Source of the DNA: Desulfuromonas sp.
GTDB taxonomy: Bacteria; Desulfobacterota; Desulfuromonadia; Desulfuromonadales; Desulfuromonadaceae
Assembly: GCA_021162745.1 (NCBI GenBank)
Contig: JAGGYC010000119.1
Location: forward strand, 1-39,595
Direction: 5' to 3'
Length of the DNA: 39,595 nt
The notes under the pieces are model-generated. The model had not been told where the DNA came from and ran no database searches. It saw nothing but the letters and a program-made list of their open reading frames with translations. How positions within the stretch are numbered: the stretch's first letter is position 1; each line of letters begins with the position of its first letter. The translations under genes and the position numbers were made by a program. Positions 3,347 to 30,527 of this stretch are shown piece after piece.

Positions 3347-3425
3347 GCGTTAAGCTATCAAATTCCGTAGCAGCGAACCGCTTTTACAGGCGTTTTTTTC
3401 ACACATACTTTTGAGGAGAACCACC

Positions 3426-4898
3426 ATGGGTCAAAACTACTTCAACACCCTCCCCCTGCGTCGCAAACTGGATGAGCTCGGCACCTGCCGTTTCATGGAC
3501 GCTTCTGAGTTTGCCAACGGCTGCGAGTACGCCAAAGGCAAGAAGATTGTTATCGTCGGTTGTGGCGCTCAAGGTCTCAACCAGGGCCTCAATATGCGTG
3601 ACAGCGGTCTCGACGTAGCGTACACCCTGCGTAAGGAAGCGATCGCTGAAAAGCGTCAGTCTTTCCTCAACGCTACTGAAAACGGTTTCACCGTCGGCAG
3701 CTACGAAGAGCTGCTCCCTACCGCTGACATCGTTATGAACCTGGCTCCAGACAAGCAACACACCGATGTCGTCAACACCGTTGTACCGATGATGCAAGAA
3801 GGCGCAGTATTCTCCTACGCTCACGGCTTCAACATTGTTGAAGAAGGCACCGAGATCCGCAAAGATCTCACCGTTATCATGGTTGCTCCAAAGTGCCCCG
3901 GTTCTGAAGTACGCGCCGAGTACGTGCGTGGATTCGGCGTGCCGACCCTGATCGCTGTTCACGGCGAAAACGATCCTAAAGGTGATGGCCTTGATCTGGC
4001 TAAAGCCCTGTGCTGCGCTCAAGGTGGCAACCGCGCCGGCGTTCTTGAGTCCTCATTTGTAGCTGAAGTTAAGTCCGACCTGATGGGCGAGCAAACCATC
4101 CTCTGCGGCATGCTGCAAGCGGGTGCCCTGCTGTGCTTCGATAAAATGGTTGAGAACGACATCGACGCCCCTTACGCCGTACAACTGATTCAGTACGGTT
4201 GGGAGACCATCACCGAGGCCCTCAAGCACGGTGGCATCACCAACATGATGGATCGCCTCTCCAACCCGGCCAAGCTGGAAGCGTTTGAGCTGGCTGAAGA
4301 GTTGAAAGAGATCATGCGCCCACTGTTCCAAAAGCACATGGACGACATCATCACCGGCGTATTCTCCTCCACCATGATGGAAGACTGGGCCAACGATGAC
4401 ATCAACCTGCTGACCTGGCGTGAGCAGACCGGCGAAACCGCTTTTGAAAAAACGGCTGCTGCCGGCGAGATCTCCGAGCAAGAGTATTTCGACAAAGCGA
4501 TCCTGATGGTGTCCATGGTTAAAGCCGGCGTTGAGCTGGCCTTCGAGAGCATGGTTGAAGTGGGTATCGAGCCTGAGTCGGCCTACTATGAGTCCCTGCA
4601 CGAGACTCCGCTCATCGCCAACACCATCGCCCGCAAGAAACTGTACGAGATGAACCGCGTCATCTCCGACACTGCCGAGTACGGCTGCTACCTGTTTGCC
4701 CACGCCTGTGTACCGCTGCTGGGAGACTTCATGGCCAGCATCAACACCGACGTCATCGGCAAAGGTCTGGCGTCAACCGACACCAGCGTCGACAACAGCA
4801 CCCTGGTGCGCGTCAACGCTGAGATCCGCGATCACTACATCGAAGAGATCGGTGAAGAGCTGCGTGCGGCCATGAGCGGCATGAAGGCGATTGTTTAA
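3426..4898 (+). CDS. ilvC: Ketol-acid reductoisomerase, class II (long form)
   Basis: Converts 2-acetolactate and 2-aceto-2-hydroxybutyrate to dihydroxy acids with NADPH and Mg2+, the second common step of isoleucine, valine and leucine synthesis; cytoplasmic. The product is 490 residues, matching the long enterobacterial class II enzyme rather than the ~330-residue class I form. The NADPH motif GCGAQG is at residues 45-50. Blocks such as [39 protein letters not shown] and YYESLHE(T)[10 protein letters not shown] match E. coli IlvC closely. ATG 3426 is preceded by GAGGAGA (3413-3419), which fixes the start. It pairs with the divergent activator ilvY and is followed by a strong terminator, so it is probably monocistronic. 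Confidence 0.97.
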
Positions 4899-23889: not shown

Positions 23890-25068
23890 ATGGTACGACA
23901 ACGGATCACCACCCTGCTTATGCTCGTCATTATGCTGCTGAGCACCCTGCCCGCACTGGCCGCCAACAACGAATCAACCCCACAACTCAGCGCAGAAATG
24001 CAACGTCTGATTGAACAGAAAGTCGATGAACTGCTGGCACAACGTCTGGCGACAATCCCCACCAGCGGCCCCCACTCCATTGACAAACCAACCATCGCCA
24101 AGAGTGATCAACATCAAATAGTGGCGGAGGTGGTTCAAAGTCTAACCTTAAGCGGAGTGGTTGAGGTAGAAGCCAATCACACCGAGGACTACGATGGTAA
24201 CAGCACCAGCGGTCTGGAACTGGCGACGGTAGAATTAGCTGTCGATGCCCAAGCTCACCCCTGGGTTCAAGGACATGTGCTGTTCCTGTATGAGGAAGGG
24301 GACGAAGATGATGTCGTCATCGATGAAGCGTTTATCACCATCGGCAACAATGATGTAACACCCTTCTACCTGAATGCGGGTCGTCTGTATGTGCCGTTCG
24401 GCAACTTCACCACCTTCATGATCTCAGATCCACTGACGCTTGAAATGGGCGAAACTCAAGAGACCGCCGTACAAATCGGCTATAACGATGAAAACTGGCA
24501 CGCCTCAATGTACACCTTTAACGGTGACACCAGCGAAGGCGATGAATTCAGTACCATCGAGCAATTTGGTGCCCACCTCGGCTACAGCCTTGAGCGCGAA
24601 GCCTGGAATCTGGCGGTAGATGCCAGTTATGCCAGCTCGTTATTCGATTCCGACAGCCTGAGTGAAGAATATGAAGACGCCGCCGTCAATGGTGATTATA
24701 TCCCCGGCCTGGGACTGCACGCCGTCATCGGCATCGCAGATCTGACGCTGATCGGTGAATATATTGCGGCACTGGAAGAACTTGATGTTGACGGTGAACA
24801 CATTGATCCCTACACCTTCAACTTGGAAGTTGCCTACACCCTTGAACTTCTGGATCGCGAAACAGCATTCGCCCTGGCATGGCAAGGCAGTGATGATCTG
24901 GTCGGCTTTTTACCTGAACAACGCTTCATGGCCAGTGTCGGCATCAGCCTGTTTGACGATACCGCTCTGACTGTAGAATATACCCATGATGAAGACTATG
25001 ACACCAGTGATGGCGGTAGCGACGATAGCAGCAATTCGCTGACCGCCCAACTCGCTTACGAATTTTAA
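23890..25068 (+). CDS. LbtU-type outer-membrane porin under cobalamin control
   Basis: A 392-residue outer-membrane beta-barrel protein. The Sec signal peptide has its probable cut after residue 24 (ALA|AN). A short helical segment follows (LSAEMQRLIEQKVDELLAQR), then a barrel with alternating strands and acidic loops, ending in the C-terminal aromatic LAYEF expected for BAM-dependent assembly. The sequence resembles proteins annotated as LbtU-family siderophore porins, named after the Legionella legiobactin receptor that works without TonB. GGAG precedes ATG 23890. It is the first gene after the cobalamin riboswitch and lies 21 bases upstream of cbiK, so transport of cobalt, cobalamin or a tetrapyrrole is more likely than a siderophore; that is inference. 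Confidence 0.8.
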   Translation: MVRQRITTLLMLVIMLLSTLPALAANNESTPQLSAEMQRLIEQKVDELLAQRLATIPTSGPHSIDKPTIAKSDQHQIVAEVVQSLTLSGVVEVEANHTEDYDGNSTSGLELATVELAVDAQAHPWVQGHVLFLYEEGDEDDVVIDEAFITIGNNDVTPFYLNAGRLYVPFGNFTTFMISDPLTLEMGETQETAVQIGYNDENWHASMYTFNGDTSEGDEFSTIEQFGAHLGYSLEREAWNLAVDASYASSLFDSDSLSEEYEDAAVNGDYIPGLGLHAVIGIADLTLIGEYIAALEELDVDGEHIDPYTFNLEVAYTLELLDRETAFALAWQGSDDLVGFLPEQRFMASVGISLFDDTALTVEYTHDEDYDTSDGGSDDSSNSLTAQLAYEF

Positions 25069-25089
25069 TTACCAATGAGGATAACCCCC

Positions 25090-26061
25090 ATGAAAAAAAC
25101 TCTTTTTAGCCTGTTCATCGCCCTGTTCATCATGGGCAGCGCCCTCCCCGGTTGGGCAACAGCCACCGGCGATAACAGGCAAGCCATCGTTATCGCTAAT
25201 TTTGGCACCTCCTACCCCAAGGCCCTGCAAGCCTTGACAGCAATCCAGAAAAAAGTTCAACAGGCGTTCCCGGACAGCCGTGTCGAATTAGCCTTTACCT
25301 CCAACATCGTCCGCAAGATCTGGCATGAACGCCAGCATGACATGGCGTTTCAACAACAACATCCTGAAATTCCCCAGCAGGTCTTGTATGTCCAGGGACC
25401 TCTGGCGACCATCGCCAATCTTCAGGATGCCGGTTACCGAACCATCTATGTTCAGCCAAGCCACATTTTTGCCGGTGAAGAATATCTCGACCTCAGCTCC
25501 TATGTCGAAGGCTTGAACAGCATCAACACCATCAAAACCCGCTTCATGCCGTTTGAAACATTAGCCATTGGCCGACCGGCCCTCGGCACTTTCGGTGATG
25601 AACATCCTTACCATGATGATCTGAAAAAGGCCGCTCAAGCGTTGGCAGTCGATGTCGAAATGGCGCGAAAAAACGACCAGGCGCTGGTCTATATGGGCCA
25701 CGGCAACGAATATTTCACCACGGGAAGCTACATCGAACTGCAGGCAACCCTGCGTCACATGTACCCCGACCTACCCATCTTCATCGGCACGGTAGAAGGG
25801 TTCCCCTCGTTGGACGATGTCAAAAACAACCTGGCCAAACAAAACATCAACAGTGTCCTGCTCAAGCCACTAATGGTTGTCTCTGGTGATCACGCCAACA
25901 ATGACATGGCGGGCGAAGAAGATGATTCCTGGAAAAATCAATTTGAACAGATGGGGATCAAGGTCACCACGGTACTTAAAGGTTTAGGTGAAAATCCAGC
26001 ATGGGCCGACATCTATGTTGAACACCTGCAACAACTAATCATGGATAGTGCAGCCCACTAA
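25090..26061 (+). CDS. cbiK: Periplasmic sirohydrochlorin cobaltochelatase CbiK
   Basis: CbiK-type class II chelatase inserts Co2+ (or Fe2+) into sirohydrochlorin, the start of anaerobic cobalamin synthesis. The product is 323 residues with the family start IVIANFGTSYPKA and the metal/substrate residues H204 (MGHGNEY), E236 (TVEGFPS) and H268 (SGDHANND). Unlike ordinary cytoplasmic CbiK it has a Sec signal peptide (MKKTLFSLFIALFIMGSALP...WA), so it should be periplasmic, as described for CbiKp of Desulfovibrio vulgaris. ATG 25090 has GAGGA upstream; an in-frame ATG at 25075 overlaps that RBS and is unlikely. It is second in the riboswitch operon and followed by a strong terminator. Confidence 0.92.
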   Translation: MKKTLFSLFIALFIMGSALPGWATATGDNRQAIVIANFGTSYPKALQALTAIQKKVQQAFPDSRVELAFTSNIVRKIWHERQHDMAFQQQHPEIPQQVLYVQGPLATIANLQDAGYRTIYVQPSHIFAGEEYLDLSSYVEGLNSINTIKTRFMPFETLAIGRPALGTFGDEHPYHDDLKKAAQALAVDVEMARKNDQALVYMGHGNEYFTTGSYIELQATLRHMYPDLPIFIGTVEGFPSLDDVKNNLAKQNINSVLLKPLMVVSGDHANNDMAGEEDDSWKNQFEQMGIKVTTVLKGLGENPAWADIYVEHLQQLIMDSAAH

Positions 26062-26178: not shown

Positions 26179-28308
26179 CTATTTATCGATTACGCTTGTC
26201 GTGTTGAGTTTATCTACCTGGCCCATGGGTAACTGCTTGAACCGGCCACCATGGATGATCGGATCTCCCTTGTAGCCAAGGTTCTTGAAGTTAATATAAT
26301 CTGTGCTTTGAGTTAGCTGCTCAACATCATTACGTTTTCCTTCAAGAAAACGGAAGTCCGTCGTCTTGTGCGCCAGTTGTTTGAAATCGACATGACGGCT
26401 GTCCTGATGACAGCGGTCACAGGTTTTTTCCCCCTGTAAGCTCGAATGACACTGGACGCAAGTCAGAGCCATGGTCGCCGGCATCACTTCGTGTTCCACG
26501 CGCCAGTAGGTCCAAGTCTCTTTCCACAGCCAATCGCCGCTGTAGGGTAGTTTGGCGGCATTCATCCCATCGGCAAAGGACTTGGCCCAATCGTAATGCT
26601 TCCAATAGGCCGTGCTGTCATCGGCATTGCGCGGAAACAGATGCGGTATCAGCAGGGTGTGATGCAAGGCGTCAAAAGCCTGCACCCCCTTCATGATCTT
26701 GAATGGTGTTATGCGCGCATTTGGATCGTTGCGCATGCCAACGGGTGCAGTCAGCGCGATGATGTCGGCACGGGTATCGACTGCATCGCCGAGGATAACG
26801 CGCTCCATGCTACCGTTAAACCAGCTGTAGTCGGGTTGAACGGCGCGTTGCCAGCGAAATTCCCCCTTCTTGACATGGTAATCCGGCAGTCCCTTGACGT
26901 CGCCCAGATCTTGCAACACCGGCTTGCGTTGTTTGTCGCCCGCCTTCGACCAGTCCCACCAGGTTTTGGTCGATGTGCATTTGGCATAGACCGGTGAATG
27001 GCAGGTGTTGCAGTCGATGCTGGCGCTGTGCTTGTTGAGATGATGATCAAGCAAGCTGTTACCCAGATGCGGTGTGGCGGAATGGCAATCCTCACAGCTG
27101 ACAACCCCTTCGGCAGCGGCGACGGAAGAGCTGCGCCCAGCGATGCGGTGTTGGCGTGTCGTATGGCATTCGCTGCAACTGAAATCGAGGTTGCCCATGT
27201 GGACATCACATTCCGGATGCGGCTGGGCCAGATTGCTGCCCATGTCGGCGTGTTTGATGGCGTCACCGCCGCCACCGTTGAAGTGACAGTTGCCGCAACT
27301 CTGACGGCTGCTGTGACCGACGTTCTCGGCAACGAATTTCAGATCGACGCTGTCGTCGGGCCAACCGGCATTTGCTGGTGATTTTTTGTATGTACCGGTG
27401 GTGTCGTGACAGACCAGACAGTCCATGTGACTGGTGTCAGTGAAATCAAAAGAGGGGTCTCTCCAGCCATATCCTGCGTGACAACTTGTGCAACGAGACT
27501 CGTTGCTGATGATGCTCACTCAGTAGTTGTTGAGGGCCGTCGTCCCCTTGCCGTGGCGTATTTCACGGCTATGATCCTGGGTGTGGCCGGAAGGGCCACG
27601 CCACTGCCAATGCGCCGTATGCAGCATGTCATTGGCTTCATCCTCATGGCAGCGCAGACACTCGGCAGTCACCTGTAATGCGTCGGGTTTTTCCGGCAGT
27701 TTCACCAGCTGTTTATGCTCCGGAACCTTGTTCAGATGACAACCGCTACAGGTAACCGGGCCTTTGTTCTGTTGCTGATGACAGGGGGTGCAGCTCTGGT
27801 GATAGGCGGCCTTGAGCCCCAGTCGTTCGGGATAATCGGGATGAAAAGCCTGTTGATGACAGGCCGAGCAACGCACCGTTTCTGGATGATTACTGTCGCC
27901 GATGTAGCTGCTGTTGTCCGCCGGACGCAGATGGTGGCAGATGCTACAGTCGCCGCTGGCGGCGGCGTGCTGACCATGATTGAAACGCACCGGGCCGTAA
28001 TGATCCTCCTGAGCCTTTATGAAAGGGCTGTCGAGGAGGAAATAGGTGTTTTTTGCATCCTTGATCGACAGCTCTGTTGCGTGTAGACGCTGGCTGCGGC
28101 GGATAGGGCCTTCCTCCTTGACCTTGTCCACCATGGGGATAATCTGTTGTGCCCGCTGGCGTGCTTTTTCCTGTCCCGGAGCAGTCCAGACAACATCGTC
28201 ATTTTGCGCTGCCACAGTCTCTATAGCGGCCAGGCTCGGCTGCACCATCAACATGATCGACAGCACAACCAGCAATGCTATTTTTAAGCGGAATAACTGT
28301 TGTATCAT
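26179..28308 (-). CDS. Multihaem c-type cytochrome, octahaem tetrathionate reductase-like, probable selenoprotein (in-frame TGA)
   Basis: Read as one 709-residue periplasmic cytochrome interrupted by TGA at 27520-27522 (residue 263, proposed Sec). A signal peptide (MIQQLFRLK...QPSLA|A) is present. Before the TGA are five CxxCH motifs (CSICH, CSACH, CTPCH, CSGCH, CLRCH); after it eight (CTSCH, CLVCH, CGNCH, CSECH, CEDCH, CNTCH, CVQCH, CDRCH), 13 in all. CTSCHAGYGW and CLVCHDTTGTYKK mark the octahaem tetrathionate reductase family; the lysine there may be the unusual haem ligand. The first four haems look like an added tetrahaem module. The downstream half has no signal peptide, and its only start (GTG 27519) has no RBS. 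ATG 28308 overlaps the stop of the hybB-like gene, so this is the third gene of an operon. A nonsense mutation is the alternative. Confidence 0.8.
27478..27519 (-). promoter_or_regulatory. Candidate bacterial SECIS element
   Basis: The 42 bases directly after the TGA on the minus strand fold into a hairpin. The closing stem is GTGA (27519-27516) with TCAC (27481-27478). The apical stem is GCAACGA (27506-27500) with TCGTTGC (27496-27490), a perfect 7 bp around a GTC triloop. The apical GU lies 21-22 bases after the TGA, against 20-21 in the E. coli fdhF element as I recall it. This position and apex are what SelB recognition needs; function is inferred. Confidence 0.6.
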
Positions 28309-29558
28309 GAGGGTATTTCCTCCCTGCTCTGCGATAGAACCGGCAAATAGGTAACCAGAACGCGGTAGACAAACATCAACGTGGCGATGAGGCCGAAGGT
28401 GATCAGCAGCTCCCCCAGTGCCGGAGCATAGTGATCCGGGGTTACCGGCGGTGTATAACCGATGATAAACACGTTGATGCGGTTGAGTATCACGCCGCCG
28501 ACAATGAGAGCGGCGGCAATAAACAGATAGCGCCGCGATTGGCGCCGCTGCGCAGACAACAACATCAGCAAGGGGGTGATAACCCCCAGCCCCAGTTCCA
28601 CGATAAATGCATTGGTTTGGAAGGTGCCATCAAACAGATAAACCCAACTGCCGCGCAGCAACAGATCACCGACTTTCAACAGCAAATAAAAACTGAGCAG
28701 GCTGATGGTGATGCGCGATAGCGGTGCCAATACCGTCATTTCGTTATCGGTGTCCAGAGAACTGCTGACCAGGGTAGCTTCGACAATCACCATGGGATAG
28801 CCGACGGCAATAGCCGAAGTGAGAAACAGCAACGGCAAAATGGGTGTGTACCACAATGGGTGCAGTTTTGTTGGGGCAATGAGCATCAGTGAACCGAGGC
28901 TGGACTGATGCATACATGACAGCACGACACCGGCGATGATGAATACCCACATGGTTTTGCTGAGCATCTTGTCGGCAAGGTCTAAAAAAAACTCCACAGG
29001 ACGGTTGAGACTGGTCAACAGACCGGGCAGTGACACACGGCCTTGAAACTGTTCGATCACCACGGGGAGAAATTCAATATACAACACATGCAGATAAACC
29101 ATGACGCACATGGCCACTTCAAACAGGACCGAGTTGGTATTCCAGTAAACCAGCGGCTTCCAGATCGCCCAGGAACGACCGATATCCACCAGCAGGCCGA
29201 GGACGACAAAGGTATAGCCGAGCATGGCCGTGAGCAACGCCGGTCGGATCACCGGTTCATAATGATGACGGCCCAAGATGTGGGCCAGGGCAGCGGTGGT
29301 AAAACCACCTGCGGCCAGGGCGACACCGGTGGCAACATCGACACCGACCCATAATCCCCAGGGCCGCGCTGTTGTCAGGTTGGATACGGCACCGATACCA
29401 CCGCTAAAACGGAACACTACCGCCACGGCACCGGCAGCCATAAAGACCAGCATCACCAGCACACCGGGGGTCCATAAGGGACGCTTAACCGGTAACGGAT
29501 TGTATGGCACGTGATGAGACTCATGTTGGGGCACATGTTGGGGCGTATGATGGCTCAT
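28305..29558 (-). CDS. HybB/NrfD-type membrane quinol-oxidising subunit
   Basis: A 417-residue inner-membrane protein with about ten hydrophobic helices. It belongs to the NrfD/PsrC superfamily and most resembles HybB, the 'Ni/Fe-hydrogenase b-type subunit' that in fact carries no haem. Typical segments are RPWGLWVGVDVATGVALAAGG, SWAIWKPLVYWN and INRINVF-type NRINVFIIGYTP. The cytosolic start is His-rich (SHHTPQHVPQHESHH). Such subunits exchange electrons between the quinone pool and a periplasmic iron-sulfur partner. The gene overlaps by four bases (ATGA) with the HybA-like gene before it and the cytochrome gene after it, so the three are translationally coupled and probably form one complex. 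No hydrogenase large or small subunit is nearby. Confidence 0.9.
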   Translation of the reverse strand: MSHHTPQHVPQHESHHVPYNPLPVKRPLWTPGVLVMLVFMAAGAVAVVFRFSGGIGAVSNLTTARPWGLWVGVDVATGVALAAGGFTTAALAHILGRHHYEPVIRPALLTAMLGYTFVVLGLLVDIGRSWAIWKPLVYWNTNSVLFEVAMCVMVYLHVLYIEFLPVVIEQFQGRVSLPGLLTSLNRPVEFFLDLADKMLSKTMWVFIIAGVVLSCMHQSSLGSLMLIAPTKLHPLWYTPILPLLFLTSAIAVGYPMVIVEATLVSSSLDTDNEMTVLAPLSRITISLLSFYLLLKVGDLLLRGSWVYLFDGTFQTNAFIVELGLGVITPLLMLLSAQRRQSRRYLFIAAALIVGGVILNRINVFIIGYTPPVTPDHYAPALGELLITFGLIATLMFVYRVLVTYLPVLSQSREEIPS

Positions 29559-30481
29559 GAGACATCTCCGGGCTGTTCGGGATGCTGAAGAGTCTGCTGT
29601 TTATGATTGCGGTACATCACACCGCCCAACAGGGTGAACAGCAGCGCAGGTGACCACAGATAACTGAACAGCGAGTGTTGCAGGGTCTCCGGCAGACGTG
29701 GCAACGGCTTAAGGGGCAGCTTGAGAAAGCCGAGCTTTGCAAAAGGGACGTTGGACAGGTACAACCACGATGTGCCGCCCACCTCCTTCTCTCCATAAAC
29801 ATGATCGACATAACGACCGGGATTATCGTGCAATCGCTTTTTCGCCAGTTTGAGAAGCGTGGACCGTTTGCCGAAGGTGATCGCTTCCGTCGGACAGATG
29901 GTGGCGCAGGCGGGAGGCTTATTCTGCTCACTCAACAGGGTCTCGCAAAGGGTGCACTTCATCACCTTGGGAGTGAGTGGATTGTGATATTCGTAAGCGG
30001 GAATTTCAAACGGGCAGGCCACCATGCAGTAGCGGCAGCCAATACACTTGTCGGCATCGTAATGAACGGCACCGTTGCTCTTTTTACTCATGGCACCGGT
30101 AATGCAGGCTGAAACACAGGCTGGATCCTGACAGTGCATACACTGTATCTTGACAAAATCCGCAACCGGCAACCCCTTATCATCGTCGACACGACCGCTG
30201 TGATAACGGTTGACAACGGTGAATTTCGTTGCGTCCGGGCGACGTTTCTCGTCGAATACGCTGAGATCATCAAAGGGGCGAACAGGCAACGGTAGTTCAT
30301 TGACGGCGTTGCAAGCCTGTTCACATTTACGACAACCGATGCAGCGGCTGATATCCATCAGACAGCCAAATGCGTCAGCGGGTGCTTTGGATTGCCAGGC
30401 CAGAGCCGATCGCGGTGTTGAGATCGCTGTTGCCGCACCAACGGCGGCCAGCTTGAAAAAACTGCGGCGTTTTAGTTGCAT
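29555..30481 (-). CDS. HybA-type periplasmic 4Fe-4S electron-transfer subunit
   Basis: A 308-residue iron-sulfur protein exported by the Tat pathway: the N-terminus has RRSFFK at residues 5-10 and a hydrophobic stretch to about residue 27. Four cysteine clusters follow in the usual order: CIGCRKCEQACN, CMHCQDPACVSAC, CIGCRYCMVACPFEIP and CTLCE...CATICPTEA, giving four 4Fe-4S sites. A C-terminal hydrophobic helix (LFSYLWSPALLFTLLGGVMY) anchors it to the membrane, as in HybA. It should pass electrons between the HybB-like subunit and the multihaem cytochrome. ATG 30481 is preceded by GGAGG; an ATG four codons upstream is less likely. It is the first gene of the operon. Confidence 0.92.
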   Translation of the reverse strand: MQLKRRSFFKLAAVGAATAISTPRSALAWQSKAPADAFGCLMDISRCIGCRKCEQACNAVNELPLPVRPFDDLSVFDEKRRPDATKFTVVNRYHSGRVDDDKGLPVADFVKIQCMHCQDPACVSACITGAMSKKSNGAVHYDADKCIGCRYCMVACPFEIPAYEYHNPLTPKVMKCTLCETLLSEQNKPPACATICPTEAITFGKRSTLLKLAKKRLHDNPGRYVDHVYGEKEVGGTSWLYLSNVPFAKLGFLKLPLKPLPRLPETLQHSLFSYLWSPALLFTLLGGVMYRNHKQQTLQHPEQPGDVS

Positions 30482-30527
30482 GCCACCTCCCATTTCATAT
30501 CATCATAAATTCATTACAAACAGATAA

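Follow-up and report, generated by a model that had tools for sequence, protein, structure and literature searches.

The locus examined here raises the question of whether a TGA that interrupts the frame of a multihaem cytochrome ends translation or is read as selenocysteine (Sec). Within the window, by which we mean the whole stretch of 39,595 nucleotides analysed, the minus-strand frame from 28308 to 26179 is open throughout except for one TGA at 27522-27520. A reading made from the sequence alone had described two minus-strand frames in the same phase split by this single codon, and the frame and its translation confirm the description, with ...LNNY on the upstream flank and VSIISNESRCTSCHAGYGW on the downstream flank. 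With the TGA read through, the gene (26179 to 28308, minus strand) encodes 709 residues with 13 CXXCH motifs, and the TGA (27520 to 27522) becomes residue 263. The NCBIfam profile TIGR04315 (octaheme_Shew) matches both halves, with positions 16-64 of the profile upstream of the TGA and 66-429 downstream, and the TGA therefore occupies exactly one position of the family profile. This agrees with the claim of the sequence-only reading that the second half continues the family sequence without a gap. A Shine-Dalgarno-like GGGAGGA lies upstream of the first ATG of the cytochrome, whose N-terminus (28225 to 28308, minus strand) resembles a signal peptide as judged by eye from the translation. The codon directly 3' of the TGA is GTG. 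The second half had been said to lack a signal peptide and a ribosome-binding site of its own, and inspection of the sequence ahead of the GTG indeed found neither a Shine-Dalgarno-like motif nor a signal peptide. Elsewhere in the window, a second minus-strand TGA, at 4055, fuses two in-phase frames of more than 150 codons each, and abutting long frames alone are therefore weak evidence. The frame across 4055 faces a long plus-strand frame (3411-4898) and is probably a shadow frame. Homology and conservation, rather than the abutting frames, decide the Sec reading. On these comparative grounds, the decoding of UGA 263 of this OTR-family (octahaem tetrathionate reductase) cytochrome as Sec is very strongly supported.

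The assignment to the octahaem tetrathionate reductase type, proposed earlier from the sequence, is upheld by both the TIGR04315 profile and the alignment to the Shewanella oneidensis OTR structure 1SP3. The profile scored 428.9 bits on the part after the TGA alone and 481.5 bits with the frame read through, above the curated cut-off of 375. The OTR octahaem domain (residues 198-622; 26443 to 27717, minus strand) was delimited by the 1SP3 alignment (E=1.4e-109), TIGR04315, and Foldseek. It contains eight CXXCH motifs and a lysine, Lys352 (27253 to 27255, minus strand), that aligns with residue 153 of the 1SP3 chain as counted on the alignment, and with these features the protein belongs to the OTR family. 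An AlphaFold2 model of moderate quality (mean pLDDT, 65.7), usable for fold matching, gave 1SP3 as the only PDB match at an E value of 0.001 or below in Foldseek (E=3.6e-41; TM-score of 0.85 by target length). Ahead of the OTR domain is a c3-type tetrahaem-like module (residues 103-191; 27736 to 28002, minus strand), which was detected with the TmcA model NF045722 (E=4.3e-18) at 65.4 bits, under the curated cut-off of 114. The 13 CXXCH motifs are accordingly distributed as four in or beside the c3-like module, eight in the OTR domain, and one, CDRCH (residues 630-634; 26407 to 26421, minus strand), beyond the OTR domain near the C terminus.

In the alignment to the OTR domain, the TGA falls on Cys64 of 1SP3; correspondence to a cysteine of the Shewanella structure had been raised as a possibility. 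We compared this column in three sets of relatives that overlap, some loci occurring in more than one set. The codon was TGA in 7 of 30 loci and Cys in the other 23 in the first set; TGA in 29, Cys in 47, and without a residue in 4 of 80 in the second; and TGA in 33, Cys in 36, and Thr in 1 of 70 in the third. After the removal of duplicate, partial, and identical rows, 165 distinct rows remained, with Cys in 100, TGA in 64, and Thr in 1; the Cys rows were partly hand-picked, and the ratio of 100:64 is no estimate of frequency. Cys or TGA thus occupies the column in 164 of the 165 rows, in line with the earlier claim that the TGA replaces a family cysteine. The sole other residue is the Thr of L193 (genome G558), a natural variant. 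A less biased frequency figure comes from a phylum sample of 395 genomes, of which 185 had any match and 69 had a match above the cut-off: among the matches listed, 78 were above the cut-off, and 31 of these 78 contained one TGA (counted by hand), in every case at the residue 263 column. Two hits of this sample below the cut-off, L178 and L179, likewise have TGA at this column. A class search of 277 genomes gave, among the matches listed, a single TGA row, L130. In the window's own family group (f1), the TGA gene was present in 7 of 14 genomes (counted by hand), and the other 7 had no full-length OTR hit. The TGA is common to 31 loci of the long form, from different genomes.

We additionally searched the genome of the window (2.9 Mb in 163 contigs, 97.21% complete) for the Sec machinery, as the sequence-only reading had proposed. 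The genes selA (521 bits), selB (389 bits), and selD (368 bits) are consecutive on contig C147, and a tRNA-Sec scored 68.5 bits, above the gathering score of 47, with the anticodon TCA according to ARAGORN. The selD gene (L017, G000:C147:13042-13959) has an in-frame TGA of its own, in SAGUAAKLG, and serves as a positive control within the genome. Formate dehydrogenase was considered for the same role, but none of its three hits had an internal TGA, and SelD was used instead. At E <= 1e-60, selB was present in 36 of 39 TGA genomes, with G107 counted among them, and in 38 of 39 Cys/Thr genomes; it was missed in the TGA genomes G005, G356, and G654 and in the Cys/Thr genome G553. The presence of selB was rejected as a discriminator, as 74 of the 78 genomes tested were positive and the two groups were not separated.

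A putative bacterial SECIS hairpin of type 1 (27490 to 27506, minus strand) follows the UGA. It starts 13 nt 3' of the codon and has a perfect 7-bp stem and a 3-nt loop, GUC, which starts with G-U and lies 20 nt after the UGA; its energy is -9.0 kcal/mol. According to PMC13188914, the bSECIS model comprises a stem of 4-16 bp and a loop of 3-9 nt at 16-37 nt from the UGA, with an energy of -7.5 or lower and a G within the first two loop positions, mostly followed by G or U. The window hairpin agrees with this model in stem, loop, distance, and energy. At fixed offsets from the UGA, one or the other of two exact hairpins is present in 61 of the 64 TGA rows and in 0 of the 101 others, and both types fit the bSECIS model in section 5 of that source. 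The SECIS-like hairpin at the correct distance that had been noticed in the sequence thus proves to be shared by most relatives with the TGA. Type 1, GCAACGAG[G/U]CUCGUUGC, begins 13 nt downstream of the UGA and occurs in 33 rows, namely, 30 long-form rows and the short-form loci L138, L139, and L164. One cultured carrier of this TGA together with a type 1 hairpin is Desulfocicer vacuolatum DSM 3385 (L077). Type 2, on UGGUGCAG[G/U]UGYACCA, begins 18 nt downstream of the UGA and occurs in 28 short-form rows. The three TGA rows with neither type are L130, L178, and L179.

The codons that form the stem are also frozen. In the 31 long genes, each of the five conserved stem columns (Ser, Asn, Glu, Arg, and Cys) has one and the same codon in every gene, which is true of just 1 of 191 fully conserved columns elsewhere (P=2.6e-9, assuming exchangeable columns). 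Position +8 in these genes is GCT in 23 and TCT in 8, so that the loop always starts with G-G or G-U. Type 2 genes arrive at the same loop start by other codons, with Cys (TGC) at +8 in 28 of 28 and AGG (24) or AGT (4) at +9. In hand-picked comparison sets of Cys relatives, +8 is Pro in 25 of 28 short rows and in 13 of 14 long rows, and Arg is encoded by CGN in 26 of the 28 short rows. The hairpin thus alters the protein: the Pro usual in the Cys relatives compared is replaced by Ala/Ser or by Cys in the Sec forms, and the RNA signal has displaced a common Pro two residues ahead of the CXXCH. The Cys at +8 of the type 2 short Sec genes, in place of the usual Pro in 28 of 28, is likewise read as forced by the hairpin; a functional Sec-Cys pair may exist in these short forms. 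Folding energy was rejected as a SECIS criterion. The window's 39-nt copy folds with ordinary energy (z, -1.17; 29 of 200 shuffles fold equally well), and -7.5 kcal/mol or lower was reached by 62 of the 64 TGA rows and also by 36 of the 101 Cys/Thr rows, so folding energy alone is a weak test; the exact hairpin, its register, and codon freezing decide. As judged by these comparisons, the significance of the hairpin comes from its conservation across relatives. An Rfam scan of 27400-27600 gave no match.

These results bear on two other readings of the codon. If the TGA were a true stop, the gene would be broken or affected by a sequencing error, or termination would be followed by a restart at the GTG. 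The +1 codon of the window is a possible start; L130, with TGA at the column and no hairpin, may be a broken copy; and in-frame stops do occur elsewhere in listed family members, as one TAA and one TAG, both off the column (L046 and L180 have Cys there). However, the downstream half is conserved in the 31 long genes that share the TGA, the stem codons are frozen, and the window's GTG has no Shine-Dalgarno motif or signal peptide ahead of it. Of 30 long rows, only 9 have ATG or GTG as the +1 codon, and a restart was rejected because this codon is not kept as a start. We regard a true stop as very improbable. A second reading, that the UGA is decoded as Trp or a near-cognate residue or that the codon is reassigned in this organism, shares with the Sec reading that the frame stays open if TGA encodes a residue. 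It is at odds with the Cys found in relatives at the column and with the SECIS-type hairpin in 61 of the 64 TGA rows. Moreover, the adjacent gene for an HmcC/NrfD-like integral membrane protein (28305 to 29558, minus strand) ends in a TGA that overlaps the ATG of the cytochrome, and TGA is thus a normal stop next door; genome-wide reassignment was rejected on this ground. This reading is the least probable of those considered, with hardly any chance of being correct. The preferred reading remains Sec at UGA 263.

The Sec and Cys rows are interspersed in a FastTree tree of the family. We counted nine state changes with all three states, seven without L130 and the Thr row, and six when L178 and L179 were also left out; the supports are approximate, and several long branches meet. 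The tree omits L072, L073, L074, and L106 (on the same contigs, judging by length and place, as L043, L044, L042, and L049); L103, L115, L116, L118, L120, L129, and three identical rows; and rows shorter than 330 residues or gapped at the column, including L049. L103 has the TGA and a type 1 hairpin, and its frame is broken further on. The long Sec clade that includes the window gene comprises 30 rows with a support of 100 and is nested in long Cys forms, the nearest of which, L189 and L190, both have NWPRC. The simplest reading of this placement is that the long Sec clade represents a gain of Sec from Cys, with a change from NWPRC to NE[A/S]RC. In another part of the tree, the type 1 hairpin of L138, L139, and L164 adjoins the NEPRC Cys relatives L107 and L020 and so appears to have arisen independently. 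L130, a short OTR gene (G107:C33), has the NWPRC codons of the Cys forms around its TGA, and G107 has other OTR copies without TGA. It is probably a broken copy or a sequencing error and was kept among the 64 TGA rows. L178 (G425) and L179 (G534) are distant relatives with an insertion after the TGA, which neither hairpin type fits.

With regard to mechanism, SelB and tRNA-Sec would bind the hairpin and insert Sec at UGA 263, and the cytochrome chain would be exported to the periplasm and loaded with 13 c-haems. We hold hairpin-directed insertion together with export and haem loading to be very likely. Sec263 lies ten residues ahead of the second CXXCH of the OTR domain, which presumably binds the Lys-ligated haem (haem 2), and residue 153 of 1SP3 is what we take to be the Lys ligand of the active-site haem. 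The Shewanella OTR structure of 2004 reportedly shows a modified Cys near the Lys-ligated haem, and the enzyme is said to have nitrite and hydroxylamine reductase activity. The occurrence of a non-haem Cys or Sec in 164 of 165 rows is typical of a functional residue and would mark the residue 263 column as such. Sec263, in place of this near-invariant Cys, may act beside the Lys-ligated haem as a nucleophile that cleaves an S-S bond (or a Se-S, S-O, or N-O bond), for example of tetrathionate, to yield a selenenyl adduct, which the haems would then reduce. We consider the chances of this nucleophilic step to be evenly balanced. In OTR, all eight haem sites are CXXCH, yet the active-site haem is ligated by Lys (PMC12285233). 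The proposed step is modelled on the Cys S-thiosulfonate of TsdA. There, tetrathionate is attacked at its central S-S bond by a Cys located at the active-site haem; thiosulfate leaves, and the Cys retains an S-thiosulfonate that is reduced by the haems (PMC5146829). The likeness is in the working only: in contrast to OTR, TsdA is a dihaem cytochrome of another family, and its Cys is itself a haem ligand. Alternatively, Sec may be incorporated for protection or for tuning of the haem pocket (redox potential, resistance to overoxidation, or metal binding) and not act as a nucleophile. The natural Thr row L193 and the many relatives that manage with Cys are in keeping with such a role, as are the seven changes on the tree (without L130 and the Thr row), according to which Cys suffices in many lineages; near-invariance of Cys/Sec in 164 of 165 rows, typical of a functional residue, speaks against it. 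This protective or tuning role is possible but appreciably less than an even bet. Returning to catalysis by Sec263, the broader proposal is that Sec263/Cys64 is the catalytic nucleophile of OTR, acting with the Lys-ligated haem through a covalent selenenyl (or thiosulfonate-type) intermediate, and that Sec defines a phylum-wide class of haem-plus-selenol reductases, wired in the present case to the membrane via the c3-like module and the Hmc-like subunits. In this proposal the SECIS would have had more than one origin, its two forms being set by the local peptide (NE-x-R-C or NW-x-R-C), and the RNA would have displaced the Pro two residues ahead of the haem-binding CXXCH. Taken as a whole, this proposal is tentative, and we would put it slightly below an even chance.

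Shewanella oneidensis OTR (1SP3, TIGR04315) shares with the window protein the octahaem domain with eight CXXCH motifs, the aligned Lys, and Cys64 at the position of Sec263. The window protein differs in having Sec for Cys, an N-terminal c3-like tetrahaem module, and a 13th CXXCH, and its gene has HmcB/HmcC-like partner genes. TIGR04315 already appears in a prokaryotic selenoprotein list of May 2026 with one Sec, as WP_331457571.1, "GenBank annotated" (PMC13188914); the entry is silent on motif, column, SECIS, distribution, and function. The selenoprotein status of the family is therefore catalogued, and the family is not itself new. The same list also includes another multihaem c-type cytochrome selenoprotein family, ExtKL, which is a different family (NF040886). 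Our literature search, which covered little beyond listings and mostly excluded subscription articles, found no description of the Sec column, SECIS, distribution, or function of TIGR04315; conducted without the 2004 structure paper, it found no stated function for Cys64 of Shewanella. The present analysis adds the column, the two hairpins, the repeated Cys/Sec switching, the phylum-wide occurrence, and the 13-haem form in an Hmc-like operon. Because Cys64 has repeatedly been exchanged with Sec in nature, it is probably reactive, and OTR catalysis thereby becomes open to direct test. If the proposal is true, the active site of a haem enzyme noted for unusual Lys ligation would include a selenol or thiol as a second element. 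These genes also show clearly, in a natural setting, how an RNA signal within a coding region changes the encoded protein. Such genes are at risk of being annotated as two fragments or as pseudogenes, and selenoprotein counts for anaerobes of this kind may therefore be too low.

The cytochrome is the last gene in the order HmcB-like, HmcC/NrfD-like, cytochrome, with the HmcB/HybA-like iron-sulfur protein (29555 to 30493, minus strand) recognized by profile search. Both partner genes stand ahead of the cytochrome in 31 of 33 long-form loci (L072-L103 and L106; 4 of the 33 repeat genomes already in the G-numbered set), in Sec and Cys forms alike. In L076 and L080, which end early upstream, only the HmcC-like gene is visible, and in L096 the HmcB-like gene is split. 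The partial loci L115 and L129 had no good partner hit, L129 having a weak HmcC-like hit. No partner gene hit was obtained at the short-form loci L104, L105, L107-L114, L116, and L118-L128, and short-form L117 had weak hits to both HmcB-like and HmcC-like genes. The models for HmcA (NF045713, 16-haem; 28.2 and 46 bits against a cut-off of 400), HmcB (345.6 against 420), and HmcC (278.3 against 550) all scored under their cut-offs, so the complex is called Hmc-like only. It has in common with the Hmc and Ohc complexes of sulfate reducers a multihaem periplasmic cytochrome with HmcB-like and HmcC/NrfD-like genes, and the Ohc complex has a comparable arrangement of OhcA, OhcB, and OhcC (PMC4641369). 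It differs from both in that its cytochrome is of the OTR type and its HmcB and HmcC matches lie under the curated cut-offs. Electrons would likely move between the membrane (HmcC-like and HmcB-like proteins) and the OTR domain via the N-terminal c3-like module. Facing the operon on the plus strand, at 23890-26061, are a gene for an LbtU-like porin and then one for a CbiK-like cobaltochelatase.
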